NCBI GenBank assembly: GCA_945874765.1
Contig: CAMCHQ010000006.1
Coordinates: 1 to 64,000 of the forward strand
From: an uncultured Clostridia bacterium
GTDB taxonomy: Bacteria > Bacillota > Clostridia > Oscillospirales > Acutalibacteraceae
Direction: 5' to 3'
Length of the DNA stretch: 64,000 nucleotides
This document shows, one piece after another, positions 4,416 to 61,124 of the stretch. A program made the translations under genes and the position numbers. Below the pieces are notes generated by a model. That model made no database searches, had not been told where the DNA came from, and was given only the letters and a program-made list of their open reading frames with translations. Numbering within the stretch: position 1 is the first letter of the stretch; each line of letters opens with the position of its first letter.

Positions 4416-4940
4416 ATGAAAAGGATATGTGAAATATATGATATTTCCAAAGATTATGAAATGCCAACAGGTACTGTTTTAATAATTGTCAGCGATATTG
4501 AAAAAGATAAAATTATTTCAATATTATTAAATACAAAATTAAAAGAAGATATGGTGTTTAATAACACCGAATGGCAAGAATATCTTGAAATTAACAACAA
4601 ATATAACCGTAACGAAGCTAAACATCAAATGCGAGAAATAAGGCAATCGAAAAGGCTTGAGAGTGATATTTCTCACATTTATGAAATTGATATAGGAGAA
4701 TCATTAGAAAATGAAGAAATTGAAATGTACTTAAAAAATTTCTTGTTAAATCTAAAACCTGTTCAAAGACGCAGGTTTGAAATGTATTACATAGATAACC
4801 TTACATATCGTCAAATAGCAGATATTGAAAAGCGAAATATCAAGTCAATTTATGAATCTGTACAAGCAGGAAAAAAGAAATTTTTAAAATATTTGGACAA
4901 ACACCCCAACAAAAATACCCCAACAAGTTTAAGTTTATGA
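4416..4940 (+). CDS. Sigma-70 region-4-like / HTH protein of integration module, copy A
   Basis: C-terminal RRRFEMYYIDNLTYRQIADIEKRNIKSIYESVQAGKKKFLK; homologous to 57373-57861. Confidence 0.7.
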   Translation: MKRICEIYDISKDYEMPTGTVLIIVSDIEKDKIISILLNTKLKEDMVFNNTEWQEYLEINNKYNRNEAKHQMREIRQSKRLESDISHIYEIDIGESLENEEIEMYLKNFLLNLKPVQRRRFEMYYIDNLTYRQIADIEKRNIKSIYESVQAGKKKFLKYLDKHPNKNTPTSLSL

Positions 4941-5254
4941 AAGGACATCCTTTCGTACAACTTAATACGCATTCATCAGATACTTTCCTGCTGTTGTGCA
5001 AAGCACAAGCCACTTTACCAATTACGCCAAGACGCATTAGCTGAGCGACAAATAATCGGTATAAAATTCGGACTGCTACCGAAACGGCGATAACAGGCAG
5101 CAGGTATAATGATACTCCTGCTCAGTCACAAGTCGAGCGTGATAAAACCGTCGCAACTAATGAGAGCAGCTCGGATGAACTCGGAGAGGTGAAACTCCTG
5201 TGGAGTCTGCTCGCAACAGACCGTTTGATGATTTCCTTTTGATAATTGGGGTGT
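4915..5254 (+). ncRNA. Candidate structured RNA, copy A
   Basis: Closed by ATACCCCAA(4915-4923)/TTGGGGTGT(5246-5254); internal helices covary with copy B at 57874-58219. Confidence 0.65.
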
Positions 5255-5282
5255 CGGGGACAAATTATATTATCTTCTGATA

Positions 5283-5321
5283 AAAGCCAACTGTAGTTAA
5301 TTCTGTGGTTGGCTTTTTACA
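5283..5321 (+). terminator. Terminator-like hairpin between structured RNA and mazF
   Basis: AAAGCCAAC...TTAATTCTG...GTTGGCTTTTT; equivalent hairpin with different stem but same loop in copy B. Confidence 0.65.
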
Positions 5322-5352: not shown

Positions 5353-5724
5353 ATGAAAGACAAAAAAATACTCAGAGGCGATATGTTTTATGCTAATCTC
5401 GGTAGAGGTATAGGTTCGGAGCAAAAAGGCTACCGACCAGTTCTTGTTATTCAAAATGATGTCGGTAACAAATTCAGTCCTACAGTAATTGTTGCTTCTA
5501 TAACAAGTAGAGTCGGAATCAAAGCAAAGCTGCCTACGCATTATTTCATAAACACAGAAGACGGACTCCAAGCTCCGTCTATTATTTTGCTTGAACAAAT
5601 AAGAACGATTGATAAAAAACGACTTGATTCATATATAGGTCATTTAAGTCAAAAGAATATTGACGGCGTTAATGAGGCTATATTGATTAGCTTAGGATTT
5701 AATGATAGGGATGTGTCTTTATAA
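5353..5724 (+). CDS. mazF: MazF/PemK-family toxin-like endoribonuclease, copy A (ORF opens at 5305; ATG 5353 after GGAGG)
   Basis: LRGDMFYANLGRGIGSEQKGYRPVLVIQND...VIVASITS...LLEQIRTIDKKRL. Confidence 0.9.
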   Translation: MKDKKILRGDMFYANLGRGIGSEQKGYRPVLVIQNDVGNKFSPTVIVASITSRVGIKAKLPTHYFINTEDGLQAPSIILLEQIRTIDKKRLDSYIGHLSQKNIDGVNEAILISLGFNDRDVSL

Positions 5725-5757: not shown

Positions 5758-5946
5758 ATGGAAAAGGTTTTAATGAGCATCAAAGAGGTTTGCGAGTATA
5801 CAGGGTGGGGAATGACCAAAACTCGTGAGATATTGAAGCGAAGTGATAGCGATTTTACAATACGAGTAGGAAACAGACTGTATGTAAACAAGAAACTTTT
5901 TGATGATTACTTAGTCAAGTGTGCGAAAAACAAAACAGATATTTAA
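5758..5946 (+). CDS. xis: Excisionase-like HTH protein, copy A
   Basis: SIKEVCEYTGWGMTKTREILKRS...VGNRLYVNKKLFDDYL; directly upstream of integrase. Confidence 0.8.
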   Translation: MEKVLMSIKEVCEYTGWGMTKTREILKRSDSDFTIRVGNRLYVNKKLFDDYLVKCAKNKTDI

Positions 5947-6018: not shown

Positions 6019-7233
6019 ATGAGGCGTTATCTTATGGGAAAGGATATAAACGGTAAAGAACTGGGGAAGGGAATTACCCAAAGAAATGACGGACGATATA
6101 ATGCAAGAGTAACAATAAATGGTGTGAAGATTAATTTATATGATTATAATTTGTCATTGCTGAAAAAGAATTTAGAAGCAAAAAAATTGAAGGTTTTACG
6201 AGATGATTATTCAACCAGACCTAATATAAGTTTAAATCAATGGTATAAAGATGAATGGTTTCCCGTATATAAATCGCCATATCTAAAAGATGAAGTTAAT
6301 CGTCACAATTATATTGTTCGTTACGAAAATACTTTCGGTAGGTTGCTAGGAAACAGAAGAATTAGTTGCATAACAGAAATACTAATACAAAAAGCAGCTA
6401 ATTCTTTAATAGATGATTTTGGCTACAGTACAAAATTTATAAGAGAAAGCGTTTCCTCATTGAAGGAAGCATTTAATGCAGCTGTGACGAATCATTTGAT
6501 AAGCCGAAATCCGTCTTCAAATATAGTTGTTAAAAATGATAATCTTGTATCGGAGCGTGTAGTTATGACAGATGAACAGCAAATGCAATTTTTAAATATT
6601 GCAAAACACAGATATTACAGTGAGGTGTATCAAATACTATTGTCTACAGGAATGAGAATAGGCGAATTGACAGGACTTCAATGGGATGACATTGATTTTG
6701 AAAATAAAGAAATTCATATCAGGCACTCTATGCAGACGGCTTATCTTAACGGTAAGAAAATTTTGAATATGACAACACCGAAAACTTCTAACTCAATTCG
6801 TGATATCCCGATGTTTGACGGTGTTGAAAAGTTGTTTGTTTCTTGGAAAGAAAAACAAGATAAAGCTAAAAAAGAATTGGGTAGACGATGGAGATTGCCT
6901 AAAGAATTTGAAAATTTGGTTTTTACAAGTTCTTTGGGTTCACCATTAACAAGATATGTTCTTTCAAATGATATAAATAAAATAGTTAGTATATTGAATA
7001 AAAACGAAGAATATTTGGCAGAACAGGAAAACAGAAAACCACAAAAGTTTCCGAAAATTCATCCACATTCGTTTAGACATACTTTTGCAACCCGATGTTT
7101 TGAGAAAAACTTGAAACCTGTTTTCATTATGAGTATAATGGGACACAGTAATTATGAAACTACATTGTCCTATACTCATTTGCTGAAAAAATCAAACGAC
7201 CAACAGGTCAGTTTGGCAGGTTCTTTTGTATGA
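6019..7233 (+). CDS. int: Tyrosine recombinase / Tn916-type integrase, copy A (likely start 6034)
   Basis: STGMRIGELTGLQWDDID, HPHSFRHTFATRCFE, MGHSNYETTLSYTHL catalytic motifs. Confidence 0.95.
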   Translation: MRRYLMGKDINGKELGKGITQRNDGRYNARVTINGVKINLYDYNLSLLKKNLEAKKLKVLRDDYSTRPNISLNQWYKDEWFPVYKSPYLKDEVNRHNYIVRYENTFGRLLGNRRISCITEILIQKAANSLIDDFGYSTKFIRESVSSLKEAFNAAVTNHLISRNPSSNIVVKNDNLVSERVVMTDEQQMQFLNIAKHRYYSEVYQILLSTGMRIGELTGLQWDDIDFENKEIHIRHSMQTAYLNGKKILNMTTPKTSNSIRDIPMFDGVEKLFVSWKEKQDKAKKELGRRWRLPKEFENLVFTSSLGSPLTRYVLSNDINKIVSILNKNEEYLAEQENRKPQKFPKIHPHSFRHTFATRCFEKNLKPVFIMSIMGHSNYETTLSYTHLLKKSNDQQVSLAGSFV

Positions 7234-7352: not shown

Positions 7353-7415
7353 TTGATTATCTCGATTGGTCTAAAGCCTTATGAATACTGGCTTTTGAAA
7401 AAATACTTTGCAAAG

Positions 7416-7430
7416 CAAATCAACGGCTAA
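7416..7430. repeat. Candidate attachment-site direct repeat (left), CAAATCAACGGCTAA
   Basis: Exact 15-bp match to 61110-61124 beyond the second int. Confidence 0.4.
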
Positions 7431-7463: not shown

Positions 7464-7499
7464 AAACGGCTTAAAACCAACGGTTTTAAGCCGTTTTTA
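7464..7499. terminator. Strong terminator-like hairpin
   Basis: AAACGGCTTAAAACC-AAC-GGTTTTAAGCCGTTTTT. Confidence 0.75.
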
Positions 7500-7514
7500 C
7501 ATGTCAAATAAAAA

Positions 7515-10277: not shown

Positions 10278-10309
10278 TTTCTAAATTTTAAGTGAAAGGA
10301 TGGATTTTT

Positions 10310-13300
10310 TTGAAAAAGAAATTCAAACAGTTAGTGGCAATGCTTTTGTCATTGCTTATTATCATTTCAACATTTCCGGCAACGGTTTATGCGTCAACCT
10401 TCATAACAGATATGAATAGTGACGCAGAGTTCGGTATAGTGAGTGGAAGTTACGATAAATACGGACACGAGATGCACTATGCCAAATATGACGGCAAAAC
10501 ATATATTGTGTTTTGTGTGCAGTATGAAAAGACTTCTCCTACGGGTACAACATACGAATACGGAAAAGATTTTGTTAAGTATGTAAACCGTTCGGGAGAT
10601 ACTTACAGGAAAATAGCCGACTATATCGCATTCGGATATACATTGCAGTACGGTGACGGTTTACCAAACACAAAAGCAGAATGGATTGCCGCCTGTTGTA
10701 CGCAACAATTTGTTTGGGAAACGCTCGGTGTTAATCCCACAAGATCATCGTGGGACAGCACATATATGAGTGATAGTCTGTATAAATCTTGGCTTGCCGA
10801 CACAGAGGACTTGATTGATTTGTACTATAACAAGCAAGTATCCTTTAACGGCAGTATAAAGACAATCAATCTCGGTGGCTCTGTTACTCTTACAGACTCA
10901 AATGGTGTGCTGAAATATTATCCGACATTTTCAAAAACAATTGATAAAGTTACTTTTTCGCACACAAAAGGCGAAAACAAGTTGACAGTATCAGTTGCAG
11001 AAAACTGCACAACTCATTCAGTTAAATTCAAATCTGTATCGCATAATATTTTTATGGATTTACCAACAGGAGATAGTTATGATTCCGATACAATGAACTA
11101 TGTGTATTTTGATTTTGACAACGGAGATATTCAAAATCTTATGTTTTCAAAACAAGCCGATCCGCAGACTTTCGCTGTTGATATTAATGTTCAGTTCGGT
11201 AATTTAAAAATCACAAAGACATCAGAGGATAATATCGTTAAAGGAATGGTGTTTACCGTTAAAGGAAACGGTAAAACCTACACAATGACTACCGATGCAA
11301 ACGGTACGGCAGAGCTTAACAATATTCCTGTTGGTACTTATACAATAAGTGAAAACGATATTATCAGATATGTTAAACAGACAGACAAAACCGTTACAGT
11401 ATCAGACGGAAAAACAGCTAATGTGTCATTTAATAATATCTTGAAGAAATTCAGGGTAACTGTTACCAAGAGTGATATTGAAGAAGGACATGCACAGGGT
11501 GATGCCAAATTAAGCGGCGCAGTATATGGTATCTATAAAGGAGAACAGCTCATTGATACCTATACAACTGATGAAAACGCATCTTTCGCAACAAAGTATT
11601 ATGTTTGTGATGATGATTGGACTATCCGTGAAATCACGGCAAGCGAGGGATATTTGCTTGATACCCGTGTGCATAAAGTCGGTGCAGAGCCTAAGCTCTA
11701 TACCGTTGAATTCAATGACACGGCAAATGCAGTAACAGAACAGGTCATCAAAGGCAACATTGCTATTATCAAGCATACAGATGACGGCTCTACTCAAATT
11801 GAAACTGCTGAAAAAGGTGCAGAATTTCAAATCTATCTTAAATCGGCAGGCTCATTTGTAAATGCAGACAAGGACGAAAGAGATACCATCGTTTGTGATG
11901 AGGACGGTTTTGCAAGTTCAAAACTTTTGCCCTACGGTGTTTACACAGTACACCAAACAAAAGGTTGGGACGGACGAGAGAAAATAAAGGACTTTGATGT
12001 GTTTATCAACTCTGACGGCAAGACCTATAAATTCCTTATCAACAATGCTAACTTTGAAAGCTATCTCAAGGTTGTAAAACTTGATAAGGAAACAGGAAAA
12101 CAGATTGCATACGAGGGTGCGGCTTTTGAAATATATGATAGTGACGGACACCGTGTTAATATGCAATTTACCTATCCGCAGGTAACAACAATTCACACAT
12201 TCTATACCAATAGCGAGGGTTATCTCATAACTCCCGAAAAGCTCCCATATGGTGATTATACACTCGTTGAAGTTCAGGCTCCATACGGATATGTTCTTGA
12301 CTCAACACCTATTCCGTTTACCATTACACAGGAAAACAGTTCAACTGATACAGGTGTAACGGTAGTTAAGGTTAAAGCAAGAGATATGGCACAGAAAGGC
12401 ACAATCAGCATTACAAAAACAGGCGAAATCTTTTCAAGTGTTGATGTAACCGATGATGTTTACACACCACAGTATAGTGTTGGAAATCTTAAGGATGCAG
12501 TATTCGAAATTTACGCAGCCGAGGACATTACAACACTTGACGGAACAATAAGATACTATCAGGGCGAGAAGGTCGATGAGATTACCACCGGAGCAAATGG
12601 CATTGCAAAATCAAAGCAGTTATACCTCGGTAAATATACAGTAATCGAGAAAACTGCTCCAAACGGCTTTGTAAATTCAAACGAACAGTATGATGTAGAA
12701 CTGACTTATGCAGGACAGAATGTTTCTGTTACCTCAACTGCTCTTACTGTCAACAATGACAGACAGAAAGTAACTGTATCACTTGAAAAAGCACTTGAAA
12801 AAGATAAGCTCTTTAATATCGGTGATAATGACGAAATCTTGTCTGTTAAGTTTGGTGTTTTTGCAAATGAAGATATAATTGCCGCAGATGGCTCAATTAT
12901 TCCAAAAGATGCATTAATAACTTATGCAAATTGCAATGAGAAAGGTAAGATCTCCTTTGGTTGTGATTTACCAATCGGTTACAGGTTTTATGTTAAGGAA
13001 ATCGCAACAGATGAGCAGTATATTCTTTCCGATACAAAATACGAGTTTGAAACTGCTTATGCCGGACAGGAAACAGAAGTCATTGCAATAAATATCAATG
13101 ACGGCAAGCCGATTGATAACACTATTAAAAGAGGAAAGGTATCAGGCGTAAAGAAAGACGAAAACGGCAACGCACTCGGCGGAGCTTTAATAGGTCTATT
13201 CAAAGCAGACACAACAGAATACACAAAGGAAAATGCCTTAATGACTGCCACATCTGCTGATGACGGCAGTTTTTATTTTGACAATGTGCCTTATGGTAAT

Positions 13301-14134
13301 TGGTGTGTTAGAGAAATAGCGCCCCCTACTGCTTTTGTTCTCAATGAGCAGATTTTTGATGTCAACATAGCCGAAAATGAACAGGTAGTTGAAATTGAAA
13401 TTGTCAACAAATTTATACGAGGCAATATCGCTTTAACAAAGGTTGACAAGGACTATCCCGATAACAGGCTCACAGGAGCAGAATTTGAAGTATTTGAGGA
13501 TACTAACGGCAATGGCAAATATGACAACGAGGATAAGTCAGTCGGCAAATTAACCGAAATTGAAACAGGTATTTATGCTATGAATGACCTTGTTTACGGT
13601 CAGTATTTTGTCCGTGAAATTAAGGCACCTGAAAACTTCCTCCTTGACGAAAATGTTTATTCTGTATTCATTGATACAGACGGCAAAACCTACATTGTCG
13701 AAAATGAGGCAGGTGTAGGCTTTATCAATGCTGCTATGACAGGCTCGCTGAAAATCATCAAAACATCTTCGGACGGTAAAGTGGAGGGCTTTTCTTTCCG
13801 TGTAACAGGTGTAAACGGATATGACAAAACATTCAAGACCGATAAAAACGGAGAAATCCTCATTGAAAACCTCCGTATCGGCGAATATCACATAGCAGAG
13901 GTTTCGGACAAGGTTTCCGCAGGCTACATCTTGGCTGATGATAAGGACGCAACTGTTAAGGCAGATGCAACTACCATAGTTAAGATGCACAACGAGAAGA
14001 AAAAGACTCCAAAAACAAGTGATAACATCAACAAGAGAGCATTAGCTACGGCTATGAGCGTATCTGCACTTGGAGCAGTATCACTTGCTTGTTATCTTCT
14101 CAAAAAGAAAAAGAACAATAAGGAGGAAAAGTAA
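10310..14134 (+). CDS. Surface adhesin: signal peptide, thioester-type domain, multiple Cna-B/SpaA repeats, C-terminal sorting signal (TTG start)
   Basis: YIVFCVQYEK and CTQQFVWE; repeated Y(T/S)(I/V)xE...FxN Cna-B cores; TPKTSDN + hydrophobic helix + KKKKNNKEEK. Confidence 0.85.
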   Translation: MKKKFKQLVAMLLSLLIIISTFPATVYASTFITDMNSDAEFGIVSGSYDKYGHEMHYAKYDGKTYIVFCVQYEKTSPTGTTYEYGKDFVKYVNRSGDTYRKIADYIAFGYTLQYGDGLPNTKAEWIAACCTQQFVWETLGVNPTRSSWDSTYMSDSLYKSWLADTEDLIDLYYNKQVSFNGSIKTINLGGSVTLTDSNGVLKYYPTFSKTIDKVTFSHTKGENKLTVSVAENCTTHSVKFKSVSHNIFMDLPTGDSYDSDTMNYVYFDFDNGDIQNLMFSKQADPQTFAVDINVQFGNLKITKTSEDNIVKGMVFTVKGNGKTYTMTTDANGTAELNNIPVGTYTISENDIIRYVKQTDKTVTVSDGKTANVSFNNILKKFRVTVTKSDIEEGHAQGDAKLSGAVYGIYKGEQLIDTYTTDENASFATKYYVCDDDWTIREITASEGYLLDTRVHKVGAEPKLYTVEFNDTANAVTEQVIKGNIAIIKHTDDGSTQIETAEKGAEFQIYLKSAGSFVNADKDERDTIVCDEDGFASSKLLPYGVYTVHQTKGWDGREKIKDFDVFINSDGKTYKFLINNANFESYLKVVKLDKETGKQIAYEGAAFEIYDSDGHRVNMQFTYPQVTTIHTFYTNSEGYLITPEKLPYGDYTLVEVQAPYGYVLDSTPIPFTITQENSSTDTGVTVVKVKARDMAQKGTISITKTGEIFSSVDVTDDVYTPQYSVGNLKDAVFEIYAAEDITTLDGTIRYYQGEKVDEITTGANGIAKSKQLYLGKYTVIEKTAPNGFVNSNEQYDVELTYAGQNVSVTSTALTVNNDRQKVTVSLEKALEKDKLFNIGDNDEILSVKFGVFANEDIIAADGSIIPKDALITYANCNEKGKISFGCDLPIGYRFYVKEIATDEQYILSDTKYEFETAYAGQETEVIAININDGKPIDNTIKRGKVSGVKKDENGNALGGALIGLFKADTTEYTKENALMTATSADDGSFYFDNVPYGNWCVREIAPPTAFVLNEQIFDVNIAENEQVVEIEIVNKFIRGNIALTKVDKDYPDNRLTGAEFEVFEDTNGNGKYDNEDKSVGKLTEIETGIYAMNDLVYGQYFVREIKAPENFLLDENVYSVFIDTDGKTYIVENEAGVGFINAAMTGSLKIIKTSSDGKVEGFSFRVTGVNGYDKTFKTDKNGEILIENLRIGEYHIAEVSDKVSAGYILADDKDATVKADATTIVKMHNEKKKTPKTSDNINKRALATAMSVSALGAVSLACYLLKKKKNNKEEK

Positions 14135-16790: not shown

Positions 16791-19700
16791 ATGCCTAATA
16801 AATTTGAGCTGATTACAAAAGCATACAGTGATGGGTGTGCTGATGTAATTCGCTCCCCTCAAAATTGGTGTGAATTTCTTTCTTCTGCCTGCTATAATTA
16901 CCGCTTGCGTTTTGATGAACAACTCCTTATTTTCCTTCAAAGACCTGACGCAACGGCAGTTCTTGAATTTGAAAAGTGGAACAAGAGGTTTAACCGTAAA
17001 ATAAACCGAAACGCAAAAGGTATTGCAGTATTCGCAGATGTTGAAAGAACGAAAATAAAACACTACTTTGATATTTCCGATACTAACGAAAATGAATTAT
17101 CCCGCCCTGTCCCTATATGGAAATATAAGGACGAGTATGAGAATGATGTTATTGAAACACTTGAAAACACCTTCGGTACTTTAAGCAATAAAAACGATAT
17201 TGTTGATGCAGTAATGTCAGCCGCAGATAACGCAGTTGAGGACAATACCGTTGACTATATCGCAGAGCTGCCGAATATTAAGAATGACAGTTTTCTTGAA
17301 GAACTCGACGATGACAGTATTTCAACAATATATCGCAGAGTAATCAAAAACAGTGTTGCCTTTATGGTGCTTACAAGACTTGGAATAAATGCAAACGAGT
17401 ATTTCAGCCGTGAAGATTTTGAGGACGCAGTTAATTTCAATACTACCGAAACTCTTAATGCTCTCGGCTACGCAACAAGTGATATTACGGAAATAGCACT
17501 TAATGAAGTGTCAAAAACCGTACTGTCATTGGAAAAATCAAATCGCATAATTGCAAAAACCGAAAAGGCAGAATATATTAAAGCCGAAAACAAAAATATA
17601 GAAAGGAGTGTTTCAAATGACACAAATCACTTACAGAAAACAGGGCGAAGTGCAGATACCGAACTTGGTACTTCCGACACAGAAGAATTTGACATTGAGC
17701 AGATATGGTCAGTTGAGGAAAAAGTTTCTCAAGGAGGAGCATCGTCTGCTGTATTACAACCTTTTGACAACGGGCAAGCTCGACAGCCATCTGCAAGAGG
17801 TGGACGAGAGAGCGAAATCAATGGAGGAATCATTGATGAAGAAAATGTCAGTTCAGGAGGGCTTGACCGAAGAGCTGAAAGCAACCGACCAAATGGCTTG
17901 GGTGCAGGGAATGAACAACTTGAAACAGAGGGTGCAGGAAATCGTGATGAAAGAGGTAATTTACGCTCTGTAACTGATGAATTACCACCGTTTTTGGATA
18001 ATGATTTGATTATGGGTGTTCTTGAAAATTCCGATGATGATTTAGTTTATAAAAAATCGTTCATTGCGGAAAAATTCAAGGAATTGAGCGAAAGAGAAAG
18101 AATACCATTTACTCAAACTCTCTACGGTGGGCGTTTTACAGAATACAACATCAACAATACAATAGTCGGCTTAAAAGCAGAAAAGGACGGACTTCTTATG
18201 TACGAGGGAACTTACAAATCTCGCACAAAGGAGTCCGGTTTTTCTTGGGAAATTGTTGCAGAGCTTATTGGTCAGTTGATTGATAGCGGAAAATACCTGC
18301 CGAAAGAAAAGAAAGAACAGGAACAAGAACAATCTGCACAAATCGGTTTATTTGACTATGTTGCCGATATACCCGAAGAACAACATGTTGACGAAAGCAA
18401 TCAGGTTTCTTTATTTACCGACTTCGGTGTATCACAGCAGATTATTGATGAGGCTCTTTGTATCGGTGCCAATGATACAAACAGTACACTTGATATTGCG
18501 ATGTTCTTTCGTCGTGACAGAGGTACAGAGTACAATACTGAATTTCTTAAAAAACACTATAAAACTAACGGCGCAGGCTTTTATTTCAATAACGAACAGG
18601 TATCAGTTTGGTATAACGAAAACGGCTTTAATGTTGCAAAAGGCACTACTGCTCAAAAGCCTTCCGCTACCCATTTAACTTGGGAACAGGTTGCAAAGCG
18701 TATTCGTGCATTGCTTGATATGGGCAGATATATTCCACAGGAAAAACTTGATATGATTGATGACAGAGAATTATCCATTGTGTCCGACCGTATCATTGCT
18801 TTTGTTCGTGATATGGACGATGAAGAAAGCTCTGAATATTTACCGAGAGGTAAAAAGATTGTTGACAATGTTCTCGGCTATCCTGATGAAGTTGCTGCTC
18901 TAAAAGAGTATTTGTCGGACGGTAATAATAGTGTTGCATTATTTAGAGAATACTCAAAATTTGCAAAGGCTTATGAAAACGGAATGATTAATCTATATAA
19001 ATACAATTACGAATATTCCGTGCCTTATGTATATGAAGTATTCAAGGGTATGCAAATTGAGCCTATCAATTTCAAAACTGCTGATGATTTTAACCCTAAC
19101 AGGCAATACTTTATTTCAAACGATGAAATTGATAATTTCCTTCGCAGAGGAAAAAGCAGTGCCGAAAGCAGATTTAGGATATACACAGGATTTGTCAGCA
19201 GACCTGAACGAGCAGACAGGGTAAAATTCATCAAGGATTATTACGGTTTAAGCGGCTCTTATTCGGGCAATGACAATTTAGATAGCTCTCCAAAAGGTTT
19301 AACAATAAGTCACGGCAATATAATGGAGCCATACGCAAAGGTAGTCTTAAAATGGAGTCAGGTTGAAAAGCATATTGATGATATGATTAAAAACAACCGT
19401 TTCTTTTATGACAGCGACTTTGACGAATTGCAGAACATATACAAAAGAGATATATCATATTCAGTCGAGAGTTTTTTCAATGACCTGCCTGATGAATATG
19501 CTAAACCGTACCCAAAGGAAACCGAAACATACAATATAAGCTATGTAGTTCGTGACAAACTCGATAATCCGCAGGAGCTTGACAACATTGAAAAAATGAT
19601 GTCTGATGCAATGGATTTGATGGGCGAGGATTACAACGGTTATAAGTATCGTAAACAGGAATATGATGATTTTGTTGCTTTCAAAAACGGTACTTATGCT

Positions 19701-22700
19701 CCGTATAAGGTGCCTGAAAAGGCACAGCCAAAGCCACCGCATACATTTACAAGCAAATTCAGTAAGCCTGCCGAAAATGAAACTGCTTTACCTGAATGGC
19801 TTACCGAATACCGTGAAATCAAGGCAGAAAACCCACAGGCTATTGTTTTCTATCAGCAGGGCGATTTTTATGAAGCCTTTGAACAGGACGCAGTAAAAGT
19901 CGCTAATGAGCTTGACCTCGTTTTAACAGGCAGACACATAAATGAGAATACAGGCGAACGCATTGCAATGTGCGGTTTTCCTAAACATTCGCTTGATAAG
20001 TATATGAAACACTTTGTGGATAAGGGATATAAAATTGCAGTATCTTCTCTTGAAAATGACGAAAGGAAAACAATTTGGTATGCTCCCGATTATCCCGAAA
20101 ATGTGCAAAAAGCTCTTGACCTTATAGCAAAATACAAAAAGGACGAGTTTGGGTATGACGATGACGCACCTTATGAAGATTTGTCCGATATTGGTCTTGC
20201 TTTCACAAGCACCGATGACGGTGAGTTTGATATTGATGTAGGTGTTGACCTTGTTAATTTCTGTATTACTCAAAGAGTGGGCGGAACTGTAACCAATGAA
20301 AGAAAGTACAACTCTCTTGATGAACTTATCACAAATGAGCTTGAGAGCCTTTCTTTTGATGATTTGGTTTTCCTTGATGAAAATACCTTAAAAGCAATTA
20401 AAAGTCGTGATACGGACGATATAAAAGCTCCTGTAATCAGGCAAAATGACCTTGCAACAAGGCTTGTTGACTTCATAAAAAACACCGATTTTTATGATTA
20501 TCAAGATAATCTGCAAATCGGCGAAACTGATGAAGATGCGATAGAAGATATGTCAAAACATATTGGTGACAAAACATTCTGTGAAGGTGTCATATCGTAT
20601 CTCACGGATTATGTTGCAATGGAAAGTACTGACTTACATGAATCAAAGGCTATGGACGGTGTACTTGATTTAGATAATGAAAATGTACTTAATAAGCATC
20701 AATTATTGCTTACCGACCTTATTAAGCATACAAATGAACTCGAAAATCAAGAGATTACACCTGCATTTCAAGCACCGCCAAAAGCAAACCCATATACTTT
20801 TGATTTGCACCCTGAGATACCGATTGCCGACAGACACAATTATAACTTTGCCGAAAAAGAAATTGAAACAGTTGGCAAAAAAGAGCGTTTCCGTAGAAAT
20901 ATGGAGGCTATCCGAGTTCTTAAAGAGTGCGAATTTGACAATCGCTTTGCAACACCTGAAGAACAAGAGATTTTATCAGGCTATGTCGGTTGGGGTGGCA
21001 TTTCAGAGGCATTTGATGAAAACAACGATGCGTGGGCAGACGAATTCCGGGAATTATATGCTGCCCTTTCTCCTACCGAATATGAGGCGGCAAGAAGAAG
21101 TACGCTGACAGCCTTTTATACCCCACAGCCTGTTATATCTGCTATCTACAAAGCACTTGATAAATTAGGCTTTAAGCAGGGTAATATTCTTGAGCCTTGT
21201 TGTGCAATCGGTAATTTTATCGGTATGCTCCCTCAAAATATGCAGGATAGTAAAATCTACGGTGTTGAGATCGACAATATCTCGGCAGGTATCGCACAAC
21301 AGCTTTATCAAAAGTCATCTATTATGACGGCTCCCTTTGAAAAGGCTGAACTTCCCGACAGCTTCTTTGATGCAGTTGTGGGCAATGTGCCTTTCGGAGA
21401 TTTTTCACTTGCCGATAAAAAGTACGATAAGTACCATTTCCTTATCCACGATTACTTCTTTGCCAAGTCCCTCGATAAGTTAAGACCGGGTGGAGTTATG
21501 TGTCTTGTAACTTCCAAAGGTACTATGGACAAAGAAAACTCCGACGTGCGTAGATATATTGCACAGAGAGCAGAGCTTCTCGGTGCAATAAGACTTCCTG
21601 ACAACACCTTTAAGGGCAACGCAGGTACAGAGGTAACATCGGATATTCTCATACTTCAAAAGCGTGACAGAGTGGTTGATATTGAACCCGATTGGTTATT
21701 CCTTGACGAAAATGCTAACGGAATACGAATGAATAAGTATTTTGTTGAGCATCCCGATATGGTACTCGGCGAAATGGTTATGCAATCAGGAAGATTTAAG
21801 CCTGAAAGTGCTTGTAAAGCCTATGAGGACAGAACTCTTGAGGAACAACTCGATATTGCCGTACAAAACATAAATGGCGAAATCACGGAATACACCATTG
21901 AAGATGTTGAGGAAAACGAGGTAAACTATATCCCTGCCGACCCTAATGTACGCAACTATTCCTTTACCGTTGTGGACGGCACTATCTATTACCGAGAAAA
22001 CTCGGTTATGCGAGAGGTAGAAACCTCCGAAACAGGTAAGAACAGAATTAAGGGTATGATTGAAATAAGGGACTGTGTTAAAAATCTTCTTGAAATGCAG
22101 ACCAATGATTACCCCGACTATGATATTGAAAAAGAGCAGCACAGACTTAACGAAATATATGATAAATTCGTTAAAAAGTATGGATATATTAACAGTAGAG
22201 GTAACTCAACAGCCTTTTCCGATGACAGCTCATATTTCCTTATCTGTTCTCTTGAAGTATTCAAAAATGACGAATTTGAACGCAAGGCTGATATATTCAC
22301 AAAACGAACTATTAAGCGGCATATTGCTAAAACTCACGCAGATACCTCCATTGAGGCTTACGGTATCTCAATAGGCGAAAAAGCAAAAATTGATATGCCC
22401 TTTATGTGTCAGCTTACAGGGAAAAGCGAGGAGGAGATATTCGTTGATTTGAATGGCGTAATTTTCCTTAACCCCGACTATGACGAAAACAACAAGGGTG
22501 TATCAAAGTATTTACCTGCTGATGAATACCTGTCGGGAAATGTTCGCAGAAAGCTCCGTCAGGCAAGAGAGATAGCTGAGAATGACGATAGATTTGCGGT
22601 TAATGTCGACGCACTCGAAAAGGTACAGCCTGTTGACTTAAAAGCAACCGAAATTGAAGTACATCTCGGTGTTACTTGGTTGCCTATTGAAATCATTAAC

Positions 22701-25673
22701 AAGTTTATGTATGAAACCTTTAATACATCTTATTACGCAAGAGGAGCAATTAAAGTGCATTACAATGAGCTTGCTAATGTATGGAATATAGAACACAAGG
22801 CGGCTGACAACACAAATCTTACCGTCACTCAAAAATACGGCACAAGCAGAAAGAACGCTTATCATATTCTCGAAGCAACACTTAATCTTCGTAATGTTCG
22901 TGTCTTTGATTATGAGGAGGACGAGAACGGAAAAAGAGTTGCAATACTCAACAAAAAAGAAACTGCCATAGCACAATCTAAACAAGAGCTTATTAAGCAG
23001 GCTTTCAAGAATTGGATATGGAAAGACCCCGATAGGCGTGAATATCTCTGCAAGCTCTACAACGAAAAGTTTAACAGTATTCGTCCTCGTGAGTATGACG
23101 GAAGTCATATTGTTTTTGAGGGAATGAATCCTGAAATAACTTTGAGAAAGCATCAGCAGGACGCAGTTGCAAGAGGACTTTACGGAGGTAATACGCTCCT
23201 CGCTCATTGCGTAGGTGCAGGTAAAACATACACTATGGCTGCAACAGCTATGGAGAGTAAAAGACTTGGTTTATGCTCCAAGTCTTTATTTGTTGTACCT
23301 AATCATCTTGTATCACAATGGGCAAGTGAATTTTTAACTCTTTATCCTTCTGCAAAGATTCTTGCCACAACTAAAAAGGACTTTGAAACAAAGAACAGAA
23401 AAAAGTTTTGCGGCAGGATTGCAACGGGAGATTATGACGCAATCATAATCGGTCATTCACAGTTTGAAAAGATACCTGTGAGCATAGGCAGACAGATGTT
23501 TACTCTGCAAAAACAAATTGATGAAATTATTGAAGGAATTTCCGAATTAAAGGCAAGCAACGGCGAAAGGTTTTCCGTAAAGCAGTTGGAGGCTACGAAA
23601 ACAAGGCTTGAGACTAAGCTTAAAAAGCTCAATGACCAAAGCGACAAGGACGATGTAGTAACCTTTGAAGAACTCGGTGTTGACCGCCTTTTCGTTGATG
23701 AGGCACACTACTACAAAAACCTTTTTGTGTATTCAAAAATGCGAAATGTAGGCGGCATATCACAGGTTGAGGCAAACAAGTCAAGCGATATGTTTATGAA
23801 GTGCCAATACCTTGACGAGCTTACAGACAGCAAGGGTATAACCTTTGCTACGGGTACACCGATAAGCAATTCAATGGTTGAACTTTACACAATGCAACGA
23901 TACTTGCAGTACGATTTATTGAGAGAGTACGGTTATGTCAATTTTGACAGTTGGGCGGCTCAATACGGCGAAACAGTAACTACTATTGAGCTTACGCCGG
24001 AGGGAACGGGATACCGTTCAAAAGTCCGTTTTGCAAGGTTTAACAACCTGCCTGAGCTTATGTCAATGTTCAAGGAGTGTGCGGATATACAGACCTCGGA
24101 TATGCTCAAACTTCCCGTACCGAATGTTGAGCATCACAACATTTCCGTTAAGCCATCAGAGTTCCAAGTCGAAATGGTTGAACAACTCGGAGAACGAGCC
24201 GAAAAGATAAGGGCAGGAGATGTTAAGCCGTATGTGGATAATATGCTAAATATTACTAATGACGGCAGAAAGCTCGCACTTGACCAAAGGCTTATTAACC
24301 CAACACTTCCCGACTTTGAGGGAAGTAAGGTAAATGAATGTGTGAGAAATGTTTATGACGTTTGGGCAGAAAATTCCGATAAAAAGTCAACTCAACTTGT
24401 CTTTTGCGACCTTTCTACACCGACAACAAAAGGCTCGGTTGAGGTAACAGATGCAGAGGTAACGGATAACGAGGATATTCCCGAAACATTCAAAAACATC
24501 TATGTTGATATTCGCAATAAGCTGATTGCAAAAGGTGTTCCTGCCGAAGAAATAGCTTTCATTCACGAGGCTAACAACGATAAGCAAAAGGCAGATTTAT
24601 TTGCCAAAGTTCGTGCAGGTAAAGTTCGTGTTTTGCTCGGCTCAACACAGAAAATGGGTGCAGGTACTAATGTTCAGGATAAGATAATTGCCTCACATGA
24701 TATTGATTGCCCTTGGCGTCCTTCCGACCTTGAACAGAGAGCAGGAAGAACAGTTAGACAAGGCAACGAAAACGATACCGTTCATCTGTACCGATATGTA
24801 ACCGAGAATACCTTTGACGCATATTTGTATCAGCTCGTGGAAACAAAGCAGAAATTTGTCGGTCAGGTAATGACAAGCAAAACCCCTGTTCGTTCCATTG
24901 AAGATGTTGACGAGGCGGCTCTTTCCTATGCCGAAATTAAGATGCTTGCAACAGGCAATCCTCACATTAAAGAGAAAATGGATTTGGATATGCAGGTGCA
25001 AAATCTTAAAATGCTCCAAAGCAATTACTACTCCGAAAGATTTGATCTTGAGGATAAGGTTACAAGAGAATACCCACAGGATATTGCAAGATACACCTCG
25101 CAGATAAAGGCTCTCAAAGTTGATATTGAAACTGCAAATAAAACCCTTAAAGCGTCTGCCGATTACTTCAACGGTATGGATATTAACGGTGAGCATTACA
25201 CCGAAAAGAAAGCCGCAGGCGAGGCAATTATCCGCATTATGAAGTCTTTTAAGAACTCATTGGAAACATTGCCTGTGGGCAGTTACAGAGGCTTTACGAT
25301 GGAAATGTATATTTCAAAAGGCTTTCGTTTAGAGTATATTCTTGCTATTCGTGGTGCAATGACACACACGATAAATCTCGGTACAGACGCACTCGGCAAC
25401 ATAACCCGTATAGACAACTGTATTGACCATTTGGCAGGCGATTTGGAAAAGGCTGAAAAGAAACTTGCCGAAACAGAAAAACAGCTTGAAATTGCCAAAG
25501 AAAGCCTCAAGGAGCCGTTCTCTCGTGAGGAAGAACTCCAAGAAAAACAGGCTCGTCTTAACGAACTCAACGCCCTGCTTAATGTTGATAAAAGGGACAA
25601 TGAATTCTGTGACGAAGAGCCTGATGAGAGCGAAATAAAACAGCCTAAAAGAGAAAGGAACATAGAACGATAA
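16791..25673 (+). CDS. Giant ICE protein: N6-adenine methylase-like + SNF2/DEAH helicase with embedded MutS domain-I-like segment
   Basis: ILEPCCAIGNFIGMLP (SAM motif I), VVGNVPFG (NPPF-like), LLAHCVGAGKTYTMAA (Walker A), LFVDEAHYYKN (DEAH), QRAGRTVRQGN; FYQQGDFYEAFEQDAVKVANELDLVLTGR (MutS I-like). Confidence 0.9.
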   Translation: MPNKFELITKAYSDGCADVIRSPQNWCEFLSSACYNYRLRFDEQLLIFLQRPDATAVLEFEKWNKRFNRKINRNAKGIAVFADVERTKIKHYFDISDTNENELSRPVPIWKYKDEYENDVIETLENTFGTLSNKNDIVDAVMSAADNAVEDNTVDYIAELPNIKNDSFLEELDDDSISTIYRRVIKNSVAFMVLTRLGINANEYFSREDFEDAVNFNTTETLNALGYATSDITEIALNEVSKTVLSLEKSNRIIAKTEKAEYIKAENKNIERSVSNDTNHLQKTGRSADTELGTSDTEEFDIEQIWSVEEKVSQGGASSAVLQPFDNGQARQPSARGGRESEINGGIIDEENVSSGGLDRRAESNRPNGLGAGNEQLETEGAGNRDERGNLRSVTDELPPFLDNDLIMGVLENSDDDLVYKKSFIAEKFKELSERERIPFTQTLYGGRFTEYNINNTIVGLKAEKDGLLMYEGTYKSRTKESGFSWEIVAELIGQLIDSGKYLPKEKKEQEQEQSAQIGLFDYVADIPEEQHVDESNQVSLFTDFGVSQQIIDEALCIGANDTNSTLDIAMFFRRDRGTEYNTEFLKKHYKTNGAGFYFNNEQVSVWYNENGFNVAKGTTAQKPSATHLTWEQVAKRIRALLDMGRYIPQEKLDMIDDRELSIVSDRIIAFVRDMDDEESSEYLPRGKKIVDNVLGYPDEVAALKEYLSDGNNSVALFREYSKFAKAYENGMINLYKYNYEYSVPYVYEVFKGMQIEPINFKTADDFNPNRQYFISNDEIDNFLRRGKSSAESRFRIYTGFVSRPERADRVKFIKDYYGLSGSYSGNDNLDSSPKGLTISHGNIMEPYAKVVLKWSQVEKHIDDMIKNNRFFYDSDFDELQNIYKRDISYSVESFFNDLPDEYAKPYPKETETYNISYVVRDKLDNPQELDNIEKMMSDAMDLMGEDYNGYKYRKQEYDDFVAFKNGTYAPYKVPEKAQPKPPHTFTSKFSKPAENETALPEWLTEYREIKAENPQAIVFYQQGDFYEAFEQDAVKVANELDLVLTGRHINENTGERIAMCGFPKHSLDKYMKHFVDKGYKIAVSSLENDERKTIWYAPDYPENVQKALDLIAKYKKDEFGYDDDAPYEDLSDIGLAFTSTDDGEFDIDVGVDLVNFCITQRVGGTVTNERKYNSLDELITNELESLSFDDLVFLDENTLKAIKSRDTDDIKAPVIRQNDLATRLVDFIKNTDFYDYQDNLQIGETDEDAIEDMSKHIGDKTFCEGVISYLTDYVAMESTDLHESKAMDGVLDLDNENVLNKHQLLLTDLIKHTNELENQEITPAFQAPPKANPYTFDLHPEIPIADRHNYNFAEKEIETVGKKERFRRNMEAIRVLKECEFDNRFATPEEQEILSGYVGWGGISEAFDENNDAWADEFRELYAALSPTEYEAARRSTLTAFYTPQPVISAIYKALDKLGFKQGNILEPCCAIGNFIGMLPQNMQDSKIYGVEIDNISAGIAQQLYQKSSIMTAPFEKAELPDSFFDAVVGNVPFGDFSLADKKYDKYHFLIHDYFFAKSLDKLRPGGVMCLVTSKGTMDKENSDVRRYIAQRAELLGAIRLPDNTFKGNAGTEVTSDILILQKRDRVVDIEPDWLFLDENANGIRMNKYFVEHPDMVLGEMVMQSGRFKPESACKAYEDRTLEEQLDIAVQNINGEITEYTIEDVEENEVNYIPADPNVRNYSFTVVDGTIYYRENSVMREVETSETGKNRIKGMIEIRDCVKNLLEMQTNDYPDYDIEKEQHRLNEIYDKFVKKYGYINSRGNSTAFSDDSSYFLICSLEVFKNDEFERKADIFTKRTIKRHIAKTHADTSIEAYGISIGEKAKIDMPFMCQLTGKSEEEIFVDLNGVIFLNPDYDENNKGVSKYLPADEYLSGNVRRKLRQAREIAENDDRFAVNVDALEKVQPVDLKATEIEVHLGVTWLPIEIINKFMYETFNTSYYARGAIKVHYNELANVWNIEHKAADNTNLTVTQKYGTSRKNAYHILEATLNLRNVRVFDYEEDENGKRVAILNKKETAIAQSKQELIKQAFKNWIWKDPDRREYLCKLYNEKFNSIRPREYDGSHIVFEGMNPEITLRKHQQDAVARGLYGGNTLLAHCVGAGKTYTMAATAMESKRLGLCSKSLFVVPNHLVSQWASEFLTLYPSAKILATTKKDFETKNRKKFCGRIATGDYDAIIIGHSQFEKIPVSIGRQMFTLQKQIDEIIEGISELKASNGERFSVKQLEATKTRLETKLKKLNDQSDKDDVVTFEELGVDRLFVDEAHYYKNLFVYSKMRNVGGISQVEANKSSDMFMKCQYLDELTDSKGITFATGTPISNSMVELYTMQRYLQYDLLREYGYVNFDSWAAQYGETVTTIELTPEGTGYRSKVRFARFNNLPELMSMFKECADIQTSDMLKLPVPNVEHHNISVKPSEFQVEMVEQLGERAEKIRAGDVKPYVDNMLNITNDGRKLALDQRLINPTLPDFEGSKVNECVRNVYDVWAENSDKKSTQLVFCDLSTPTTKGSVEVTDAEVTDNEDIPETFKNIYVDIRNKLIAKGVPAEEIAFIHEANNDKQKADLFAKVRAGKVRVLLGSTQKMGAGTNVQDKIIASHDIDCPWRPSDLEQRAGRTVRQGNENDTVHLYRYVTENTFDAYLYQLVETKQKFVGQVMTSKTPVRSIEDVDEAALSYAEIKMLATGNPHIKEKMDLDMQVQNLKMLQSNYYSERFDLEDKVTREYPQDIARYTSQIKALKVDIETANKTLKASADYFNGMDINGEHYTEKKAAGEAIIRIMKSFKNSLETLPVGSYRGFTMEMYISKGFRLEYILAIRGAMTHTINLGTDALGNITRIDNCIDHLAGDLEKAEKKLAETEKQLEIAKESLKEPFSREEELQEKQARLNELNALLNVDKRDNEFCDEEPDESEIKQPKRERNIER
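17617..17973 (+). CDS. tnpV: TnpV-like transposon-encoded protein nested in an alternative frame inside the giant ORF
   Basis: MTQITYRKQGEVQIPNLVLPTQKNLTLSRYGQLRKKFLKEEHRLLYYNLLTTGKLDSHLQEVDERA...LTEELKATDQMAWVQGMNNLKQRVQEIVMKEVIYAL; GAAAGGAG SD before ATG. Confidence 0.75.
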   Translation: MTQITYRKQGEVQIPNLVLPTQKNLTLSRYGQLRKKFLKEEHRLLYYNLLTTGKLDSHLQEVDERAKSMEESLMKKMSVQEGLTEELKATDQMAWVQGMNNLKQRVQEIVMKEVIYAL

Positions 25674-48972: not shown

Positions 48973-49860
48973 ATGAATAAAACAATTAACAACATTTATG
49001 TTGTAGCTGAAATAGGATGCAATCATATGGGAGATATGAATATAGCTAAAAAAATGATAGAAATAGCAGCTCTATATTGTAATGTAAATGCAGTTAAATT
49101 TCAAAAACGATGCATTAAAGAGTTGTTAAATGACCAACAATATAATGCTCCACACCCTAATCCAAAAAATGCGTTTGGCAAAACATATGGAAAACATAGG
49201 GAAGCACTAGAATTTAACATAGCACAGCACAAAGAACTTTTTGATTATTGTAAAGAAAATAATATTACATATACCGCTTCGGTTTGGGATTTTACATCGG
49301 CTATGGAAATAGCTTCATTGCAACCGAAATACATAAAGATACCATCGGCATCAAACACAAATTATCACATGCTAAAATGGTTATGTGAAAATTATTTTGG
49401 TGAAATACATTTATCGTTGGGAATGACTTCTCTTGAAGAGGAAGAAAATATTATTAAATTATTCATTGATTCTCATAGAAACAAAGATTTAGTGCTTTAT
49501 GCTTGCACTTCTGGTTACCCTGTTCCATATAATGAAACGTGTATAATGGAAATTATTAGGCTTAAAGAAAAATATGGTGATATTATTAAAAAAATTGGTT
49601 ACTCAGGACATCATATTGGTATATCTATTGATAACGCAATAGCAGCACTTGGCGCAGAAGTGATAGAACGTCATTTTACACTTAATAAAGATTGGAAAGG
49701 TACTGATCATAAAGCATCACTACTACCAAATGAGATGAAGGAATTAGTGAATGAACTAAAATTAATTCCTGAAATTATGTGTTACAAACAAGAAGAAATT
49801 TTGCCTATTGAAAAAATACAAAGAACAAAGTTAAAAACTTACAAGGAAATATATGTATGA
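48973..49860 (+). CDS. neuB: NeuB-family sialic/nonulosonic acid (or KDN-phosphate) synthase without visible SAF domain
   Basis: VVAEIGCNHMGDMNIAKKMIEIA...AVKFQKR; KIPSASNTNYHML; LHLSLGMT-like; YACTSGYP; GYSGHHIGISIDNAIAALGAEVIERHFTL. Confidence 0.9.
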   Translation: MNKTINNIYVVAEIGCNHMGDMNIAKKMIEIAALYCNVNAVKFQKRCIKELLNDQQYNAPHPNPKNAFGKTYGKHREALEFNIAQHKELFDYCKENNITYTASVWDFTSAMEIASLQPKYIKIPSASNTNYHMLKWLCENYFGEIHLSLGMTSLEEEENIIKLFIDSHRNKDLVLYACTSGYPVPYNETCIMEIIRLKEKYGDIIKKIGYSGHHIGISIDNAIAALGAEVIERHFTLNKDWKGTDHKASLLPNEMKELVNELKLIPEIMCYKQEEILPIEKIQRTKLKTYKEIYV

Positions 49861-51020
49861 ATGTAGCTTTAATACCAGTGCGTGGAGGTAGCAAGTCTAT
49901 ACCTTATAAAAATATTAAGTATATAAATGGAAAACCATTAATATTTTGGACTTTAAAAGCAGCTAGTGAATGTAAATATATTGATGCTATTTATGTAGCT
50001 ACAGAAGATTCTAAAATCAAAAAAACAGTGGAAGAATTTCATTTTAAAAAAGCAAAGGTTATAACAAGAAGTCATGAAAGTGCATCTGATACAGCATCAA
50101 CAGAAATTGTTATGTTGGAATTTGCAGAACAATATGATTTTGATAATATTGTATTAATACAAGCAACCTCACCATTATTAACTGCTCTTGATTTAAATCA
50201 AGGCTTTGAAAAAATGTGTAATCAAAATATTGATAGTGTGTTATCTGTTGTTGAACAAAAAAGATTCATTTGGAAAAATATAAAAGATGGAAGTGTTAAA
50301 CCTCAAAATTATGATGTATATTATCGTCCAAGGAGACAAGATTTTGAAGGCGTTCTTGTTGAAAATGGAGCATTTTACATTACAAAAAAAGATTTTCTTA
50401 TAAAATATAAAAGTCGTATATCTGGAAATATTGGTGCAGTAAGAATGCCAGAAAATACATATTTTGAGATTGATGAACCAGAAGATTTTACGATTATAGA
50501 AACACTTATGAAAATTCGGGACAGTAAAAAGGTACGCAGTACAAATATCCAAAAAATAAAATTGTTTCTAACGGATTGTGATGGCTGTTTAACTGATGGA
50601 GGAATGTATATATCGGACAATGGTTGTGAAATTAAGAAATTTAATGCACAAGACGGAAAAGGATTACAATTATTAAGGGAAAGTGATGTTAAGACAGGTA
50701 TTATTACAGGTGAAACATCTAATTTAATTAATGAAAGAGCTAAAAAACTGAAGATTGACTATTTGAAAATGGGGATTGTTGATAAGAAATCAATAGTATG
50801 TGATTTGTGTGAAGAAATGAAAATCACTCCGAATCAGGTAGCATATGTCGGTGATGATATTAATGATTTAGAAGTTATTAATATGGTTGGAGTTGGTTGT
50901 TGTGTTAACAATGCAATGGAATGTGTAAAGAACATAGCTGATTATATTTCACCATATTCTGGTGGAAGTGGTGCCGTTAGAGATTGTATTGAACACTTAT
51001 ATAGAAATAATTTAATATAA
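49857..51020 (+). CDS. neuA: Bifunctional CMP-nonulosonate cytidylyltransferase + KdsC-like HAD phosphatase
   Basis: IPVRGGSKSIPYKNIKYINGKPLI (cytidylyltransferase); LFLTDCDGCLTDGGMYISDNG...KKFNAQDGKGLQLL...VAYVGDDINDLEVINMVGVGCCVNNA (HAD). Confidence 0.9.
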   Translation: MNVALIPVRGGSKSIPYKNIKYINGKPLIFWTLKAASECKYIDAIYVATEDSKIKKTVEEFHFKKAKVITRSHESASDTASTEIVMLEFAEQYDFDNIVLIQATSPLLTALDLNQGFEKMCNQNIDSVLSVVEQKRFIWKNIKDGSVKPQNYDVYYRPRRQDFEGVLVENGAFYITKKDFLIKYKSRISGNIGAVRMPENTYFEIDEPEDFTIIETLMKIRDSKKVRSTNIQKIKLFLTDCDGCLTDGGMYISDNGCEIKKFNAQDGKGLQLLRESDVKTGIITGETSNLINERAKKLKIDYLKMGIVDKKSIVCDLCEEMKITPNQVAYVGDDINDLEVINMVGVGCCVNNAMECVKNIADYISPYSGGSGAVRDCIEHLYRNNLI

Positions 51021-51039
51021 TACTTTTAGAGGGAATGAT

Positions 51040-52020: not shown

Positions 52021-52025
52021 TAGCT

Positions 52026-57128: not shown

Positions 57129-57201
57129 AAATCTTGCATTTTTTAGCGTATTAATAAAAACTTTTTTAGAAAAATAATTTTAAAGATAACAATTATATTA
57201 G

Positions 57202-57249
57202 AAGCAGTTATAACTTTCAAAACTTTTTGAAAGTTATAACTGCTTTTTT
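57202..57249 (+). terminator. Strong intrinsic terminator after glycan cluster
   Basis: AAGCAGTTATAACTTTCAAAA-CTT-TTTGAAAGTTATAACTGCTTTTTT. Confidence 0.9.
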
Positions 57250-57873: not shown

Positions 57874-58219
57874 AACACCCCAAACAAGTTGAAGTTTATG
57901 AAAGGACTTACTTTCATACAACTGAATAAGTCAGTCATTAAATACATTCCTGTTGTTGTGAAAAGCACAAGCCACCTTAATAATTACGCCAAGACGCATT
58001 ACGCCGAGCGAACAATAATTATTATAAAAATCGGATTGCTACCGATTTGGCGATAACAGACAGCAGGCATAATGATACTCCCACCCAGTCACAGTCCGAG
58101 CGTGAAAAAACCGTCGCAGGCAATGAGGGTGGCTCGGAGCAACTCGGAGAGGTGAAATTCCTGTGGAGCTGATTAGCAAACAGCCGTTTAATGATTCCTT
58201 ATTTGCAATTCGGGGTGTT
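57874..58219 (+). ncRNA. Candidate structured RNA, copy B
   Basis: Closed by AACACCCC(57874-57881)/GGGGTGTT(58212-58219); covarying helices with copy A. Confidence 0.65.
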
Positions 58220-58247
58220 GAGGACAAATAGAATTGCTTTCATATAC

Positions 58248-58280
58248 AACAGCCGATGGATTAATTCTGTCGGCTGTTTC
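58248..58280 (+). terminator. Terminator-like hairpin between structured RNA and mazF, copy B
   Basis: AACAGCCGA...TTAATTCTG...TCGGCTGTT. Confidence 0.55.
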
Positions 58281-58314
58281 TTACATAGGCAAAGTCTATT
58301 AAGGAGGTTTATTT

Positions 58315-60206: not shown

Positions 60207-60339
60207 TATTTTATGATGTAATATGTTTTAGAGCAAGCAATATCGCTTGCTCTTTTATCCTTGTTGCAAAAATACTTTTAATATGTTAGTATAGAATAAA
60301 CTATATGTTATGAAATATTGAAAACAGAGGTAATTATGC

Positions 60340-60933: not shown

Positions 60934-61109
60934 TGATAGCATACGATAGTTTATGATATGATTATGTGGCAAAATAAGTTTTGGGGCGATGAAAATGAGA
61001 TGTATTTTATCTGCTCTGAAAACATATAAAGTCAAAATTGAGGTAGCCGATTAAATCTATAATGCGGAAACACCGAGTTTAAGCCAAATTTGAAATCTTT
61101 TTTGCATTT

Positions 61110-61124
61110 CAAATCAACGGCTAA
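61110..61124. repeat. Candidate attachment-site direct repeat (right), CAAATCAACGGCTAA
   Basis: Exact 15-bp match to 7416-7430. Confidence 0.4.

Follow-up and report, generated by a model that had tools for sequence, protein, structure and literature searches.

Two non-coding stretches of the window, the 64,000-nucleotide piece of DNA from an uncultured Clostridia bacterium that was analysed here, are, judged by sequence comparison, structured RNAs of ~320 nt and relatives of canT, the antiterminator of Tn916. It is highly probable that they do what canT does in Tn916, namely a processive antitermination that would switch on mazF, xis and int and, after excision, the transfer genes. The present analysis contributes conservation at the RNA level, homology to canT and the layout of terminators and att sites; antitermination, action in cis, processivity and orientation dependence have been shown for Tn916 (PMC11658703). 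By analogy, we infer both the same activity for the two window copies and the mode in which they would contact RNA polymerase. The kind of RNA (canT) and its core model (RF02913) are known already; what appears to be new is a family-wide structure backed by covariation, the identity of pemK RNA with canT, the shared boxA-like edge and the layout behind tsf.

Extent and classification of the RNA

Both RNAs lie on the forward strand. Copy A (4953..5274) runs from a degenerate boxA-like 5′ edge through the end of a 3′ hairpin, with the Rfam core inside, and copy B (57914..58237) is 79% identical to it over the aligned columns; the two were placed in one alignment with 73 non-redundant relatives. 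An alignable non-coding stretch between a sigma-like gene and mazF in both modules had been described in the original prediction, and a reading of both sequences confirms it. In addition, the repeat families D3, D5 and D6 cover the non-coding stretches of both modules at 77–87% identity. The extent first proposed for copy A, 4915–5254, does contain a conserved RNA, but its bounds have to be moved to a start at ~4953 and an end at ~5274, with 4915–4940 still being part of the sigma ORF. Protein coding in the stretch was rejected, since copies A and B do not share their reading frames and length changes in the alignment break the frame.

No named RNA class had been recognized for the stretch. 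However, its 3′ part is the Rfam family RF02913 (pemK RNA) and the whole element is homologous to Tn916 canT, and by the prediction's own reckoning the Rfam match takes away its basic novelty. The cmscan matches are found at 5106..5203 in copy A, with the AUAAUGAUACUYC motif at the start (57.9 bits, gathering cut-off 34.8), and at 58069..58166 in copy B (59.5 bits). They comprise 98 nt in the 3′ part of each window RNA, less than a third of the RNA (~100 of ~320 nt), and the family is labelled a presumed cis-regulator. Conservation extends beyond the Rfam model by ~150–200 nt on the 5′ side and by 50–110 nt on the 3′ side (~190 loci), giving a conserved element of ~270–400 nt across relatives compared to the 61 positions of the model. 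A TTGAMAAYTGAATA motif stands at the start of the family consensus and a hairpin with the loop GGGGTGTYGAGGACAAAT at its end. Within the bacterial family of the window, 87 of 301 genomes have an RF02913 match above cut-off; within the phylum, 26 of 400 do.

RF02913 aside, the Rfam scan of the stretch returned no other family above cut-off. A sub-threshold match of 19 bits to the dinG RNA (RF03082) was seen at 5108–5226, where the core AAUGAUACUUC is held in common. The dinG RNA may be a relative of the antiterminators; a search for it among 251 genomes yielded one match only, which was below cut-off. A phage origin was rejected, with IMG/VR contigs containing no exact match to two probes and the one matching Streptococcus phage record being a carrier of a Tn916 copy.

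Secondary structure and covariation

Covariation was scored with an APC-corrected G statistic over all column pairs of the alignment of 73 non-redundant copies having both ends. For the null, alignments with the same substitutions were simulated along the inferred tree. The script is R-scape-like and not R-scape itself, and the threshold was set at E<0.05. At this threshold 18 pairs are significant, all of them canonical in 78–100% of the sequences, and they fall in P2, P5, P6, P8, P9, P10, P11 and the long core-enclosing pair of the Rfam model. In a rerun with other settings 16 pairs were significant, again without a non-canonical one, and an analysis of only 30 window-like sequences gave four. 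Selection on RNA structure, which had been proposed from the two copies, is thus borne out with many more homologues. Furthermore, the paired cells contain 232 G-U against 61 A-C combinations, an approximately fourfold excess that argues for an RNA read from the + strand. The stability of single-sequence folds is unremarkable (z = -0.05 for A and -1.6 for B), and therefore the structural claim rests on comparison.

The long-range closing helix P1 is formed in copy A by TCATCAGAT/GTTTGATGA (4973–4981/5223–5231, 9/9 pairs) and in copy B by TCATTAAAT/GTTTAATGA (57935–57943/58186–58194), with a compensatory change from C-G to T-A compared to A. In an alignment-free test, 3′ partners were swapped among the 73 loci and duplex energies were compared over 100 shuffles. 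The P1 duplex energy of -13.4 compares with -8.6 (sd 0.26) after swapping, that of P2 is -11.4 compared to -7.5 and that of the P11 arms -7.1 compared to -2.7; each of these was reached in 0/100 shuffles. P2 (A 4987–4994/5097–5104; B 57949–57956/58060–58067) contains three significant covarying pairs that are 97–99% canonical. P4 (A 5016–5019/5058–5061 and 5021–5024/5053–5056; B 57977–57984/58018–58025) emerged from a stem scan in which a canonical fraction of 0.81 was observed against 0.62 expected, with 2–4 pair types per pair. Significant covarying pairs are likewise present in the P6 hairpin with its 7-nt loop (A 5067..5083; B 58028–58034/58042–58048), in P8 (5170–5175/5181–5186), in P9 (5187–5189/5197–5199) and in P10 (5205–5210/5216–5221), and the long pair 5117–5200 covaries significantly as well. 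Each pair of P7 (A 5118–5123/5164–5169; B 58081–58086/58127–58132) is canonical or G-U in 94–100% of 35 sequences, and the long-insert form has an inner stem (5131–5133/5156–5158) of which the pair 5132–5157 is significant in the long-insert subset. The 3′ hairpin P11 (A 5241–5246/5269–5274; B 58205–58211/58231–58237) carries GGGGTGTCGGGGACAAAT in its loop and has four significant pairs.

Several of these helices had been recognized from the two copies. CTGCTC/GAGCAG in A versus CCACCC/GGGTGG in B, the 7-nt-loop hairpin and CCTGCTG/CAGCAGG, which is part of P2, proved exact on checking the sequence, and GTCTG/CAGAC is present as described. The closing helix suggested at the time, ATACCCCAA/TTGGGGTGT (CCCC/GGGG), had to be abandoned: its GGGG sits in the loop of P11, a hairpin with a covarying stem, its CCCC partner is no family feature, and the two sides fail to co-change in the genus copy L070, which has CACCCTC and GGGATG at these places. 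P1, the actual closing helix, was absent from the earlier set.

Homology to Tn916 canT

In a blastn search with the stretch, the gap between orf8 and xis of a Tn916-type element was matched in pCF10 and further Enterococcus records, with 83% identity over 59 nt, and RF02913 scores 55 bits on Tn916, exactly at canT. The gap has been shown to be canT, which works as a processive antiterminator in cis and in one orientation (PMC11658703, Wirachman and Grossman 2024). canT is most probably an RNA and is needed for transfer-gene expression after excision; it acts on heterologous terminators and shows no action in trans (PMC11658703). Excision is normal in the canT deletion and S3 mutants of Tn916, the latter, canT(S3), being a change of ATA to TGC 283 nt after orf8 that lowers conjugation ~100-fold (PMC11658703). 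From the published coordinates the S3 site is L093:4001–4003 of the Tn916 locus, and the RF02913 match starts at L093:4001, which places the mutation at model positions 1–3. These positions are 81–97% conserved (145 loci), and the invariant core with the S3-sensitive ATA, ATAATGATACTCC, is present in both window copies. Some shorter canT fragments are active and S3 is without effect in a 400-bp fragment (PMC11658703), so that the published mapping of canT is not simple. Tn916 also forms the family helices P1 (3863–3869/4117–4123), P2 (9 bp), P4 and P5.

The authors of the canT study make no mention of Rfam, describe predicted structures as hard to interpret and leave structure analysis aside (PMC11658703). 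With its support for P1 and P2 and with S3 in the invariant core, the comparative structure makes this part of canT testable via compensatory mutants. The literature on pemK RNA and RF02913 that was examined, to which the 2017 defining paper does not belong, contains no tie to canT, and a literature search for canT returned the original paper alone (PMC11658703).

RefSeq annotates an antisense hypothetical protein across canT (L093 3944–4195, pCF10/Tn916); the protein of the antisense ORF across canT (orf5) is dispensable for conjugation (PMC11658703). Tn916 also carries the Rfam RNA SQ2397 (RF03532) at L093 2552–2781, labelled a cis-regulator of an HTH transcription factor.

The boxA-like motif at the 5′ edge

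With at most two mismatches, the 5′ motif recurs in the 16S-23S spacer of each of the 15 rRNA operons examined; these operons belong to six related genomes of the sample, the five assemblies of the window genus being without a 16S gene. We take this spacer motif to be the boxA bound by NusB and S10. Allowing up to 4 mismatches, a boxA-like motif is present in 111 of 145 non-redundant relatives, compared to 0.6 in shuffles. In both window copies boxA is degenerate and its 3′ part alone is kept. The active 452-bp fragment of Tn916 canT, which begins 126 nt after orf8 (PMC11658703), starts inside the boxA-like motif and keeps 14/20 nt of it. Given the degenerate boxA of the window copies and this fragment start, a Nus role via boxA, perhaps for processivity, is treated as hypothetical, and the chances for and against it seem about equal. 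A hairpin just before boxA was rejected as a defined helix, since its frequency (87/114 compared to 77 in shuffles) is not distinctive, though folds there are on average more stable.

Gene neighbourhoods of the pemK RNA family

The first downstream genes at 128 loci include 29 ParA, 28 PemK, 13 HTH_17, 12 serine recombinase, 4 ParB and 2 Tn916-Xis genes, and at least 58 of 129 upstream genes match sigma-70 region 4. As PemK is first downstream in only 28/128 loci, the description 'pemK regulator' is too narrow; the mix of downstream genes would fit an element heading mobile-element operons and not a dedicated PemK switch. Together with the canT homology, the sequences suggest that the RF02913 pemK RNA is the conserved core of canT-type antiterminators, which would give the presumed toxin-gene switch a job. 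A more tentative proposal, to which we assign slightly less than an even chance, is that pemK RNA forms the core of one widespread family of Clostridia and Bacilli ICE antiterminators, most members of which would borrow host rRNA antitermination by combining a 5′-edge boxA with a large folded RNA acting on RNA polymerase. The orphan Rfam family RF02913 gains a likely function, and the logic of canT is extended from Tn916 to many Clostridia elements, offering a signature for the control point where ICEs switch on transfer.

Tandem elements behind tsf

The window follows the arrangement of Tn916, with sigma gene, canT, mazF, xis, int and att in this order on the forward strand. The gene upstream of canT encodes sigma-70 region 4 (PF08281; A 4416..4940; B 57373–57861, just under the curated cut-off). 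Downstream of canT follow a MazF/PemK gene (PF02452; A 5353..5724; B 58315–58683), a Tn916-Xis family excisionase (PF09035; A 5758–5946; B 58723–58914) and a tyrosine integrase (PF00589; A 6019–7233; B 59001–60206). The MazF/PemK genes between canT and xis are without an adjoining mazE.

A 24-nt direct repeat (D7) that includes CAAATCAACGGCTAA follows int A and int B. Its copy at 7407..7430, at the 3′ end of tsf, bounds ICE-A on the right and ICE-B on the left, and its copy at 61101..61124 is the right boundary of ICE-B. An intact tsf terminates in the same 15 nt both on contig C14 of the same genome (1380–1394, L287) and in the genus member G294, which has no RF02913 match; the att site is thus the 3′ end of tsf (EF-Ts), downstream of rpsB. 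As read from these repeats, the arrangement is one of at least two ICEs in tandem at the tsf 3′ end. ICE-B spans 7.4 to 61.1 kb and encodes, in order, ParA, ParB, a SpaA-repeat protein, a 2960-aa methylase/helicase, a relaxase, VirD4, a TraG/VirB4-like ATPase, NlpC/P60, cargo and the sigma-canT-mazF-xis-int module. The window contains the right part only of ICE-A, with the contig starting at position 1. The flank past 61124 nearly repeats the post-tsf flank of C14, with its own strong hairpin, and is unlike that of G294, so that a third element or remnant may lie beyond 61124.

The 2960-aa protein of the transfer region (16791–25673) combines a MutS domain I-like stretch, an Eco57I-type methylase and an SNF2/ResIII helicase domain. 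Early in the ICE-B transfer region, a 1280-aa protein (10292–14134) with nine SpaA prealbumin-like repeats is likely a surface protein. Among the ICE-B cargo, at 48973–54125, are genes for a NeuB-family synthase and for a pyruvate kinase-barrel protein, a hint that surface-glycan genes are carried.

Terminators and proposed mechanism

Terminator-like hairpins are located directly 3′ of each RNA and before mazF, at 5282..5319 for canT A (-16.5 kcal/mol, z -5.7, followed by a T-run) and at 58248..58281 for canT B (-20.0 kcal/mol, z -7.6). Between att and parA, within ICE-B and close to its left end, a T1-like terminator is predicted (7466..7500; 13-bp stem, U-tract, -16.6 kcal/mol, z -5.65), and another terminator is predicted between int B and att (60230..60260, -14.6 kcal/mol). 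In the transcript of an excised circle, the predicted terminators downstream of canT are those at 7466–7500 and 60230–60260 and the hairpins after each RNA. As a rule for the family, a terminator immediately 3′ of the RNA was rejected, since one was found within 145 nt on that side at only 22/73 loci; the figure for other windows is 17%, and 6.2 would be expected in shuffles. A very long, near-perfect 20-bp terminator-like hairpin is present just upstream of the module B sigma gene (57200–57247).

Transcription from or upstream of the sigma-like gene would yield the RNA, which would fold as it emerges such that P1 encloses P2–P10 and the invariant AUAAUGAUACUYC motif stays single-stranded. The folded RNA would then alter the same RNA polymerase that made it, allowing intrinsic terminators to be passed, and, not stopped by the hairpins that follow the RNA and int, the altered polymerase would transcribe mazF, xis and int. 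In the excised circle, canT-B would precede the T1-like terminator and the transfer genes, and the polymerase could pass the joined att and this terminator and go on to transcribe parA and the transfer genes. As long as the element is integrated, the T1-like terminator would insulate the transfer genes from the preceding rpsB-tsf operon. T1 of Tn916 has been proposed as an insulator at the left end of the element, and an insulating left-end terminator makes sense here since the array lies directly behind the rpsB-tsf operon in the same direction. The tandem array leads to a further prediction: canT-A would already be upstream of the ICE-B transfer genes without excision, and the coupling to excision could weaken.

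Alternative explanations

The position of both window RNAs directly before mazF, with a strong hairpin between, and the Cis-reg type of RF02913 in Rfam would also fit a leader regulating mazF (pemK) in cis, in which RNA and hairpin form an attenuator or translational switch for the toxin. This is improbable, as PemK comes first in only about a fifth of the neighbourhoods, with parA, recombinases, xis and others elsewhere, and as the Tn916 RNA has no adjoining mazF and works on heterologous terminators. The ToxIN layout consists of a structured RNA, a terminator and a toxin gene. The order of RNA, terminator and MazF-fold toxin without an adjoining mazE resembles it, and the RNA could accordingly be imagined as the antitoxin of a solitary MazF in a type III-like toxin-antitoxin pair. 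However, no short tandem repeats were found in the stretch, canT is inactive in trans, and most relatives as well as Tn916 have the RNA without an adjoining mazF, which makes such a pair very improbable.

The proximity to xis and int, in the window as in Tn916, could in turn point to a feature of the DNA, such as Xis/Int binding sites, an origin of transfer or a regulatory DNA hairpin. That the element acts as DNA is extremely improbable given the excess of G-U over A-C in paired columns, expected of a + strand RNA, the normal excision of the Tn916 deletion and S3 mutants, the dependence of activity on orientation and the many relatives in which the RNA is not beside int.

Comparison with known systems

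RNA is also used for antitermination in the conjugation operon of plasmid pLS20, where conAn differs in that the protein ConAn1 is required as well (PMC8955417); a search of the whole plasmid gave no RF02913 match. The put RNA of phage HK022 and EAR of the B. subtilis eps operon share with the window RNAs processive antitermination by an RNA in cis (PMC11658703, PMC8955417); they were compared by description, with the Rfam scan of the stretch, which gave no other match, as the sequence side. Antitermination of rRNA operons through boxA (NusB/S10) is similar in that in most relatives the 5′ edge carries a motif hardly different from the boxA-like one in rRNA spacers of related genomes, whereas the canT family adds a large folded RNA and the window boxA is degenerate. 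Both window copies and Tn916 canT exceed the gathering cut-off of the RF02913 pemK RNA (34.8 bits), but the Rfam label is that of a cis-regulator and PemK is next to the RNA in about a fifth of loci.

The closest counterpart is canT of Tn916, which shares homologous sequence, the helices P1, P2, P4 and P5, and an S3 site that is the invariant core motif. It also shares the position between sigma/HTH regulator genes and xis-int, as well as a T1-like terminator at the opposite end of the element. In the window, unlike in Tn916, a mazF gene is inserted ahead of xis, a terminator-like hairpin follows the RNA immediately and boxA is degenerate; the window copies also possess P11 with a conserved loop, whereas Tn916 is without P11.
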